Below, piece by piece: positions 38,860 to 43,501 of a stretch of 64,000 nucleotides of DNA. The stretch's first letter is position 1, and each line of letters starts with the position of its first letter. The stretch is from assembly GCF_002208095.1 (NCBI RefSeq), contig NZ_CP017990.1:4712001-4776000 (forward strand). Direction: 5' to 3'. Made by a program: the position numbers and the translations under genes. The notes below the pieces were generated by a model. That model did no database searches, had not been told where the DNA came from, and saw only the letters and a program-made list of their open reading frames with translations. The DNA comes from Enterobacter cloacae complex sp. ECNIH7 (GTDB lineage: Bacteria > Pseudomonadota > Gammaproteobacteria > Enterobacterales > Enterobacteriaceae).

Positions 38860-39423
38860 TCAGCGATTGAGGAAATTTGCCAGCAGCGCGTGCCCCTGCT
38901 CGCTGAGGATGCTTTCCGGGTGGAACTGCACGCCTTCGAGGTCCCATTCGCGGTGACGAATCCCCATGATCTCCTGCGCATCGCTCCAGGCGGTCACCTC
39001 AAAGCAGTCGGGCAGCGTCGGCGGGTCAATCACCAGGGAATGGTAGCGCGTCACGGTTAACGGATTATTGAGCCCCGTGAATACCCCTGTGCCGGCGTGG
39101 GTGACCGGAGAGGTTTTACCGTGCATCACTTTCTCGGCGCGCACGATGGTGGCACCAAACGCCTGGGCAATCGCCTGATGGCCCAGACAGACGCCCAGGA
39201 TCGGCAGCTTGCCGGCATAGTACTGGATAGCATCCAGAGAAATACCCGATTCCGACGGCGTACACGGCCCAGGAGAAATCACGATTTTCTGCGGAGCCAG
39301 CGTCCCGATATCGGCCAGTCCAACCTCGTCGTTACGGCGGACAACCACCTCTGCACCCAGTTCACAAAAATACTGGTAAAGGTTCCAGGTGAAGGAATCG
39401 TAGTTATCAATCAGCAGAATCAT
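38860..39423 (-). CDS. pabA: Aminodeoxychorismate synthase glutaminase subunit PabA
   Basis: Glutamine amidotransferase that supplies ammonia to PabB for 4-amino-4-deoxychorismate in folate synthesis. The 187-residue protein has the class I triad: nucleophile C79 in [10 protein letters not shown], and His and Glu in VQFHPESIL near residue 168. The oxyanion motif [11 protein letters not shown] is at 50-60. Lies 30 bases after fic, the conserved fic-pabA order. Confidence 0.96.
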
Positions 39424-39453: not shown

Positions 39454-40038
39454 CTACTCAGATTCCCGCGCTTCGCTCACTACTTTGGCAAAGATAGCGT
39501 TTAGCGCGGTTAAATCTCCCGTTGCGCCGCTTCGGTTAGCCGCCACCCACTGGTCGGGATCGATATCGCGCCAGTCCAGCGAGTAGCCCGCGTGGAGCGC
39601 CAGCTGCTCGAAGAAAACGCGTTGGGCAATACCGTTGCCGCGCATAAACGGATGCAGCATGTTGATTTCGCAGTAATAGTGGCTAACCCGGTCAACAAAC
39701 GCCGCTTTCTCAAGACCCACGAGATACTTTTCGCTTTCCAGCGCCGCCATCAGCTCGTTACCCATCTTCTCGATGTATTCGAAATGGCAGAAAGGAATGT
39801 CACCCTTAAAAATATCGTCAGTGCGTAACTCGCCTGCCCGCTTCATCTCGCTGCGGTACAAATGACGATGAATAAGGCACAGATGGGGCAACCCGGGCGC
39901 GGAAGGCCCAAGCTCCAGCGTCTCAATATGGGGCTCTGAGGGACCATTACCTTTTTCAAGGAGACAACTGGCCTGTAAATTGACGTTACGCTGCTGTTCC
40001 CAGAGACGGGATTTTTGCTTGTCGGTGAGCTTTTTCAC
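39454..40038 (-). CDS. fic: YhfG-Fic fusion: antitoxin N-terminus joined to Fic AMP-transferase core
   Basis: One 194-codon frame starting at GTG with AGGGAGG six bases upstream. Residues 1-28 (MKKLTDKQKSRLWEQQRNVN..., LQASCLLE) match the N-terminus of YhfG, the antitoxin normally encoded just before fic. From about residue 39 the sequence matches E. coli Fic from about residue 45 on (ETLELGPSAPGLPHL, PFCHFEYIEK, YYCEINMLHP, GATGDLTALN). The first ~45 Fic residues and the second half of YhfG are missing. The Fic motif is HPFMRGNGIAQR (129-140), with arginine at the usual Asp/Glu position. The YhfG inhibitory motif SxxxE(G/N) reads S24-CLL-E28-K29. It may be a self-inhibited Fic or an inactive remnant. 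Followed 30 bases later by pabA. Confidence 0.85.
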   Translation of the reverse strand: MKKLTDKQKSRLWEQQRNVNLQASCLLEKGNGPSEPHIETLELGPSAPGLPHLCLIHRHLYRSEMKRAGELRTDDIFKGDIPFCHFEYIEKMGNELMAALESEKYLVGLEKAAFVDRVSHYYCEINMLHPFMRGNGIAQRVFFEQLALHAGYSLDWRDIDPDQWVAANRSGATGDLTALNAIFAKVVSEARESE

Positions 40039-40110
40039 TTAACGCCTCCCTGAATAGTCCGTTTGCCACAAGTATAAGCAGCAAAACGCGCTTTCGCAGG
40101 GAGGGTTACA

Positions 40111-40144: not shown

Positions 40145-40726
<582 letters not shown>

Positions 40727-42184: not shown

Positions 42185-43501
42185 CTACGCCCCTTTGCGC
42201 TCGGCAGAGGGGCTGTTTCTGGCAAAGCTTACCTCTTCTCCCCCGACGTCCGTCTGGATCCACGTCTGCGCCAGCTGCGTCGTGGCGATCACCCGTCCCT
42301 GACGAATCGACCAGCGCACCGGCACCTGGCAGCGCACCGCTTCAAACCCGCTCTCGGCAGGCAGAATAATCAGGTTCGCCGGGTTACCTGTCTTAATGCC
42401 GTAATCGCTCAGGCCGAAGGTACGGGCGCTGTTATGGGTGATGAGATTCAGGCCGCTGTCGATTTGCGGATAGCCCATCATCTGACAGACGTGCAGCCCC
42501 ATATGCAGCACCTGCAGCATGTTGCCGGTGCCGAGCGGGTACCACGGGTCGAAGACGTCGTCATGACCGAAGCAGACGTTAATGCCCGCTTCCTGCAGCT
42601 CTTTCACCCGGGTGATGCCGCGGCGCTTCGGATAGTCATCAAAGCGCCCCTGCAGGTGGATATTGACCAGCGGGTTCGCGACGAAGTTAATCCCCGACAT
42701 CTTCAGCAGACGGAAGAGCCGCGAGGTGTAAGCGCCGTTGTAGGAGTGCATGGCGGTGGTGTGGCTGGCCGTCACGCGCGGGCCGATGCCAGCCTCATAC
42801 GCCAGCGCGGCCACCGTCTCGACAAACCGCGACTGTTCGTCGTCAATTTCATCGCAGTGGATATCCAGCGGTCGGTCATACTTCTTCGCCAGTTCAAAAG
42901 CGATGTGCAGCGACTGCACGCCATATTCCCGGGTAAATTCGAAGTGCGGGATCGCCCCGACCACGTCGGCCCCCAGTTTTAACGCCTCTTCCAGCAGCGC
43001 CGCGCCGTTCGGGTAAGAGAGAATACCTTCCTGCGGAAACGCGACGATTTGCAGCGTTACCCACGGCGCCACCTCCTGTTTCACCTCCAGCATCGCCTTC
43101 AGGGCGGTGAGCGTCGGGTCAGAGACATCCACATGGGTACGAACAAACTGGATGCCGTTGGCAATTTGCCACTTCAGCGTTTTCCAGGCGCGTGATTTCA
43201 CATCCTCATGGCTGAGCATCGCCTTGCGCTCCGCCCAGCGTTCAATGCCTTCGAACAGCGTGCCGGACTGGTTCCAGTTCGGCTCCCCTGCCGTCTGGGT
43301 GGTATCAAGATGAATATGCGGCTCGATGAACGGCGGGAGAGCAAGCCCACCGCGCGCGTTCAATACTTCATAACTTTCGGCGTGGGTGTCGTCCATCGGG
43401 GTGATGTCACCAAATCGCCCGTTCTCGATGGCAAGTTGCCACAGCCCATCCCGACCCGGTAAACGTACATTCTGAACAAGCCATAACGGTGATGTAGACA
43501 T
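42185..43501 (-). CDS. codA: Cytosine deaminase
   Basis: Metal-dependent amidohydrolase converting cytosine to uracil and ammonia. The 438-residue protein aligns closely with E. coli CodA over its length (about 427 residues there). Metal and catalytic residues are all present: H62 and H64 (PHIHLDTT), Q157, H215, E218, H247 and D314 ([10 protein letters not shown]). The extra C-terminal residues encode a GC-rich hairpin. No cytosine permease gene (codB) is adjacent, unlike the E. coli codBA operon, and the gene lies between tsgA and nirB where E. coli has none. Confidence 0.93.
42189..42213. terminator. Hairpin in the codA 3' end, possible tsgA terminator
   Basis: GCCCCTTTGC and GCAGAGGGGC (42189-42198, 42204-42213) form a 10 bp stem with one G-U pair and loop GCTCG, followed on the plus strand by TGTTTCT. 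It begins eight bases after the tsgA stop and lies within the last codons of codA. Confidence 0.5.

Follow-up and report, generated by a model that had tools for sequence, protein, structure and literature searches.

In many Enterobacter species, the two-gene toxin-antitoxin pair yhfG-fic has become one gene. In the window, the 64,000-nucleotide stretch of the Enterobacter cloacae complex sp. ECNIH7 genome analysed here (contig NZ_CP017990.1, positions 4,712,001 to 4,776,000), a frame on the minus strand (39454..40038; GTG start, stop codon at 39454-39456, no internal stop) encodes a single-chain YhfG-Fic protein of 194 aa. It is probable that this naturally fused and selectively maintained protein holds a class II-like inhibitory helix, most likely docked in cis, and that its activity is likely other than AMP transfer. 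Similar YhfG-Fic fusions with other joints occur in other genera, and the best tree presents them as separate events.

The fused gene, its locus and its spread in Enterobacter

Residues 1-28 (39955..40038, minus strand) derive from YhfG and comprise the inhibitory helix of the antitoxin. They match the Pfam YhfG family (PF10832) at residues 2-28 with 34.8 bits against a cut-off of 22.6, over positions 1-27 only of the 54-position profile; E. coli YhfG (5JFF chain B) aligns with residues 1-30, and a helix is predicted at residues 6-27. S24 (codon 39967-39969, minus strand) and E28 (39955-39957) lie within this part. The Fic core, residues 38-194 (39457..39927, minus strand), is equivalent to residues 44-200 of E. 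coli FicT and was placed by Pfam, NCBI model and structure-chain alignments: Pfam Fic/DOC (PF02661) matches residues 52-146 (45.9 bits, cut-off 24), positions 44-200 of the NCBI E. coli-type Fic model match residues 38-194, and the nearest solved chains, those of E. coli FicT (5JFZ/5JFF chain A), align from query residue 37. The core carries the Fic signature HPFMRGNGIAQR at residues 129-140 (39619..39654, minus strand), including the catalytic H129 and the last arginine, R140. Between the two parts, a nine-residue linker (residues 29-37; 39928..39954, minus strand) occupies the place of the missing C-terminal half of YhfG and about 43 N-terminal residues of Fic, including the DPY segment. An earlier note on this DNA had claimed that one 194-codon frame replaces the yhfG-fic pair, that residues 1-28 are YhfG with its inhibitory helix, that Fic is matched from about residue 39 on, and that the C-terminal half of YhfG and about 45 residues of Fic are gone. 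It named no strand for the gene. Its coordinates were right, both Pfam domains exceed their cut-offs in one chain, and the assignments agree with ours apart from a core start at residue 38 and a loss of about 43 residues.

A ribosome-binding site, AGGGAGG, was read from the sequence at 40045..40051 (minus strand), so that the strong site and intact frame described earlier are both present. The same motif stands 5' of all 20 genes with this joint (hereafter type A) and of all 13 same-genus split yhfG starts; judged by this comparison, the ribosome-binding site of the fused gene is inherited from yhfG. The gene is flanked by pabA (38860..39423) and ppiA (40145..40717), both on the minus strand and named by similarity to the E. 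coli annotation, and each of these was matched inside the 16-kb locus in 75 of 75 loci. The sole YhfG match sits inside the fused frame and no second one was found elsewhere in the genome, which lacks the separate antitoxin gene of a class I Fic pair; two further Fic-domain matches lie elsewhere in the same genome. Also in the window, a gene at 42185-43501 (minus strand), between tsgA-like and nirB-like genes, has a product that by eye resembles cytosine deaminase.

Among 35 other genomes of the same genus, 20 carry the fused protein (73-99% identity, aligned over residues 1-193 or 1-194), 14 have a split pair and one has no match. The fused protein is also found in records named Enterobacter vonholyi, E. 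asburiae, E. mori, E. cloacae and E. hormaechei. The protein search returned 359 matches, of which the best 120 were listed; among the matches listed, one 194-residue database cluster holds 2108 member sequences. Matches at 97-98% make an origin of the window in the E. asburiae group probable. The presence of this frame in 20 of the 35 genomes and in the named records rejects a lone assembly artefact and shows the fusion to be conserved among relatives, a condition set in the earlier note. In the E. coli collection, a similar stretch is present in 5375 of 5426 genomes, and ten listed E. coli records annotate fic and yhfG separately, between pabA and ppiA. In Enterobacter sp. EA-1 (L085), Fic matches are scattered over several frames beside the yhfG match, and for that reason its fic looks broken or badly sequenced.

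The joint did not arise by the single in-frame deletion that had been proposed. The distance from the yhfG start to the Fic core is 111 bases in the fused gene vs 286 in same-genus split loci, where the yhfG stop lies 121 bases before the Fic core (13 of 13 split rows) and fic is in a different frame. The net shortening in type A is thus 175 bases, which is no multiple of three, and two differently framed genes are therefore now in one frame. The residues gone from type A are YhfG 29-55 and about 43 of Fic, among them the DPY segment; in E. coli FicT, that segment holds R138 and the flap according to the available text of PMC5033356.

Other joints in the family and the number of origins

When family genomes were scanned and their loci read, five joints were found at the same locus, types A to E, with start-to-core lengths of 111, 126-129, 120, 165 and 84 bases, respectively, and 286-301 in split rows. 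Type A belongs to Enterobacter and type B to Buttiauxella and neighbours, while types C, D and E occur in one genome each (G294, G086 and G229). Genus g66, with seven genomes, includes three of type B (one with a stop), one of type A and three split. Type C was found in one of the six genomes of its genus (four split, one without a match), type D in the sole genome of its genus, and type E in one of two, the other without a match. Both Pfam matches exceed their cut-offs in one representative each of types B, C, D and E, in P0033 (type A) and in P0048. An even draw of 392 family genomes gave 187 with some match and at least 17 single-chain by range; the frames of all 17 single-chain rows were read. 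In the Buttiauxella-like genus g90, G395 and G447 appear split, as judged by range only.

Several single records deserve mention. P0048, a metagenome protein of 195 aa with YhfG and Fic above cut-off, has Asp at the inhibitory position and reads HPFRSGNGLALR; from its sequence it looks like a sixth joint, and no genome carrying it was among the matches listed in the 392-genome draw. P0041 (233 aa) and P0044 (252 aa), two E. coli-like fused proteins, are probably strain-level frame events; YhfG is largely retained in them, and the Fic N-terminus largely or completely. G307 (L189, G307:C2:403401-404051) has a type B fusion with one internal stop. The genome matching the record Chryseobacterium sp. 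18061 (L050, L190), G311, groups in the Enterobacteriaceae genus g66, and the record is probably mislabelled.

Trees were built for 75 chosen loci (31 fused and 44 split; fused G015 and split G032, on short contigs, were left out), the species tree from six flanking genes and the Fic-core tree from 157 columns. In the species tree, type A falls mostly in one Enterobacter clade, with the split G013 inside it and the fused G235 in g66. In the Fic-core tree, type A forms one group (100/100) and type B another (100/97), type C groups with its own genus (100/99 and 97/88), and types D and E stand on long branches among split rows; the split rows that neighbour type D differ from those in the species tree. 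All five types are apart in the Fic-core tree, whose starred branches force at least four changes between fused and split.

A single origin for all five types was rejected by the AU test (p 0.0164), as was one clade of A+B+C (p 0.0084). It is unlikely, though arguable, that there were one or two ancient fusions only and that the scatter reflects recombination among relatives together with a return of the split pair. This account draws on the clades A+B (p 0.287) and B+D (p 0.443), neither of which was rejected, on the split G013 within the fused species clade, on the residues QR that types B, C and D mostly read immediately ahead of the core, and on the reality of recombination, as seen in G235 with its type A middle. 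However, the Fic-core tree separates A to E with the forced changes given above, the start-to-core lengths are unequal, and the clades of all five types and of A+B+C are rejected, with the reservation that groupings smaller than all five were picked after the tree had been seen and that the branches of C, D and E are long. Because the all-five clade is rejected and A+B and B+D are not, more than one origin is established, and five is the number on the best tree.

G235 (L187, G235:C3:1591237-1591872) is a mosaic allele in genus g66. Its YhfG part has a similarity of 0.89-0.93 to its own genus vs a mean of 0.75 to type A, and its core is like type A at residues 38-141 and like its own genus at 142-193. 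Such a mosaic points to transfer of the fused allele between genera through homologous recombination.

The long stem of type A in the Fic-core tree (0.41) is in favour of its arrival in Enterobacter from a distant donor rather than its formation there. However, the core synonymous difference between type A and the four nearest split species (0.65) is similar to that among the split species of the genus (0.58-0.66), while at the protein level the core differs two to three times more (0.206 vs 0.070-0.091 among split species), as would be expected if change in place was fast. With synonymous sites close to saturation, this test is a weak one and disfavours the donor weakly; taken together, we consider a distant donor quite unlikely. 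The similar synonymous and raised protein differences rather indicate that the fusion came with fast protein change and that the protein is now constrained, though less so than split cores.

Constraint, predicted fold and likely activity

The fused protein is kept under purifying selection. Over 20 type A species, dN/dS (pooled pairwise Nei-Gojobori, with G235 left out, and G307 left out of the type B set for its internal stop) was 0.105 in the YhfG part, 0.104 in the core and 0.23 in the linker, the least constrained part; that of 13 same-genus split cores was 0.066, below the type A core. Across 21 type A rows, 101 of 194 columns are invariant, among them S24, E28, H129, the motif residues P, F, G, N and G, Q139 and R140. 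The occurrence of an internal stop in one type B genome, the loss of the catalytic His in type E and the faster protein change than in split relatives might be taken as signs of a decaying pseudogene, in which remnants of toxin and antitoxin stand in frame by chance. For type A this reading was rejected and is highly improbable, since none of the 21 rows has an internal stop, dN/dS is near 0.1 across 20 species and the ribosome site is conserved.

Predicted models reached a mean pLDDT of 83 for type A and 79 for type B; two of the five models were poor (59 and 45), and model residues 71-83 are under 50. The structure alignments were made for fused proteins only, with 49 (A1) and 31 (A2) of 120 listed matches, fragments and split Fic proteins being left out. 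For both the A and the B model, the alignment with FICD, C. elegans Fic-1, C. difficile Fic and BT_2513 starts at residue 1-4, and S. oneidensis Fic is also among the matches listed for the type A model only; the Z scores to class II chains are 11.9-14.1, near the level where a common helical arrangement may suffice. We take SoFic, C. difficile Fic, C. elegans Fic-1 and BT_2513 to be class II. Class I chains align with both models only from residue 29-31. The alignment with EfFic starts only at residue 30-32 of the A model and 30-31 of the B model; EfFic is placed in class II in the available text of PMC13327609 but in class III in that of PMC8401265.

The resemblance to class II Fic proteins that the earlier note had drawn therefore holds in part. 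The prediction does place an inhibitory helix ahead of the core within a single chain (helix 6-27, with FICD and four other chains aligned from residue 1-4), but the class II motif [S/T]xxxE[G/N] is kept only in its first half: SxxxE occurs in 21 of 21 type A rows and is followed by Lys in 20 and Glu in one. Because this residue is not Gly or Asn, we use the label class II-like, not class II. The helix Glu and the last motif Arg, which would form a pair, are both invariant, and the alignment yields range ends only, not the helix register.

The best reading is a cis-docked, class II-like enzyme. The former antitoxin helix, at the N-terminus of the Fic core, would most likely be kept docked over the active site, where S24 and E28 would face R140. 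As such an inhibitor could no longer be removed by degrading a separate antitoxin, the fused protein would no longer be a releasable toxin-antitoxin pair and may have lost its toxicity.

AMP transfer, named in the earlier note as the activity to be assayed, is doubtful. The AMP transferase motif HxFx(D/E)GNGRxxR differs from HPFMRGNGIAQR, which, like E. coli FicT and the close split relatives, lacks the Mg-binding acid and the first Arg; in 21 of 21 type A rows, the acid position is S or R and the first-Arg position I or V. None of the 31 fused rows has the acid, against 9 of the 44 split rows. The four split relatives of type C all read HPFREGNGR, while C reads HPFFAGNGL, and type B retains the first motif Arg. 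As split relatives of type A already lack both residues, their loss in type A did not follow from the fusion. According to the available text of PMC13327609, the His and antitoxin E28 of Fic-1-AntF are needed for deAMPylation, and the acid and first Arg for AMPylation only; that protein has a canonical motif, and its R146A variant still AMPylates yet R146 is listed as required. For E. coli FicT, the available text of PMC5033356 reports no known activity. Since type A keeps the His and Glu that deAMPylation needs and lacks the acid and Arg that AMPylation needs, we propose a non-AMPylating activity, most likely constitutive removal of a modification or constitutive hydrolysis, or else a transfer that uses the same substrate as the E. 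coli FicT subgroup.

Types B and C have Asp at position 28, and type E has Thr. In type E (L204/G229), the catalytic His is lost as well (SPF) and the branch length is 2.85; with both residues gone and so long a branch, it may be a pseudoenzyme. Not all fusion types need act alike, given these changes, and inhibition may not be the thing that has been kept. The YhfG helix could instead be a structural stand-in for the deleted first helix of Fic, in a scaffold or pseudoenzyme to which inhibition is irrelevant. The replacements at position 28, the type A motif without acid and first Arg, a residue 29 other than Gly or Asn and the altered near-invariant Fic positions all speak for such a role, which we nevertheless consider somewhat unlikely, since all 21 type A rows share S24, E28, the catalytic His and the last Arg and dN/dS in the YhfG part is low.

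Of the core columns, 62 are conserved in at least 42 of 44 split rows, and 9 of these are changed in type A, 2 in B, 9 in C, 7 in D and 16 in E. At the flap Tyr (E. coli Y83), every one of the five types shows a change; in type A this site holds Phe in 13 rows, Ser in 7 and Ala in 1, partly a conservative change. Every type but B has changes at Q68, D69 and W73, D69 having become Glu in D and E; R138 is altered in A, B and C and retained in D and E. In the available text of PMC5033356, R138 is connected with the DPY lock, and Y83 is proposed to contact a target. A random-draw check gave 0.0012 for one column changed in all five types; its assumptions, exchangeability among the 62 near-invariant columns and independence of the types, make it only indicative. 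A broader scenario is possible and is put forward tentatively: the class I pair in Enterobacteriaceae may have turned into a single-chain, class II-like protein at least twice (five times on the best tree), with the antitoxin as a fixed part of the active site of a constitutive de-modifier and with parallel changes at Y83 in five types, at Q68, D69 and W73 in four, and at R138, the holder of the deleted lock, in three.

Known systems and evolutionary meaning

The fusion shares with the E. coli pair EcFicT-EcFicA (Fic-YhfG; 5JFF/5JFZ) its homologous parts, its locus, an inhibitory helix with S24 and E28 and a motif that is non-canonical at the acid and first-Arg positions. In contrast, the E. 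coli system consists of two proteins, and its DPY lock N-terminus and second YhfG helix are absent from the fusion. Stanger et al. (2016; PMC5033356) described, in the available text, an Enterobacter FicT 'subgroup 2' whose N-terminus is distinctive, with five residues deleted and DPY lacking, and whose R0 is not Arg. Type A agrees with it in genus, in the lack of DPY, in the non-Arg R0 and in shortening (five residues there, six here), and subgroup 2 is most likely the type A fusion, an identity that we infer from the description in that text. That text neither explains the N-terminus of the subgroup nor calls it an antitoxin, and a FicA homologue is stated to lie upstream of all ecFicT except in one E. 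albertii; a word search of PMC5033356 did not find 'fusion'. The fusion thus probably explains an Enterobacter FicT subgroup left unexplained in 2016. No published description of a YhfG-Fic fusion was found in the literature searched, most subscription papers being outside its reach.

Class II Fic proteins (FICD, SoFic, C. difficile Fic, C. elegans Fic-1 and BT_2513) likewise carry the inhibitory helix ahead of the core on a single polypeptide, whereas the fusion shows apparent recent descent from a class I pair, a degenerate motif and loss of the second half of [S/T]xxxE[G/N]. Fic-1-AntF of Pseudomonas bijieensis 2P24 (8WT0) is a class I relative whose complex with antitoxin Glu28 is a deAMPylase, but it consists of two proteins and has a canonical motif. 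Bartonella Bep3/1, Bep3/2 and Bep4, as described in the available text of PMC8401265, also carry antitoxin sequence fused ahead of a FicT-derived core, although they are secreted effectors of another lineage. EzeT, in the available text of PMC4826407, is a zeta toxin with an N-terminal antitoxin domain in one self-regulated chain, its toxin family being unrelated to Fic.

Class I Fic pairs arose from class II according to a phylogenetic analysis cited in PMC13327609, the available text of which points to gene fission. The fusion is the reverse step, from class I pair to single chain, in living species, and offers the founding Fic protein in the form of a single gene. Because a single genus has both the split and the fused form at the same locus, both the cause and the consequence of the fusion are testable. 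The fusion of antitoxin and toxin is a real, repeated step in the evolution of such enzymes.
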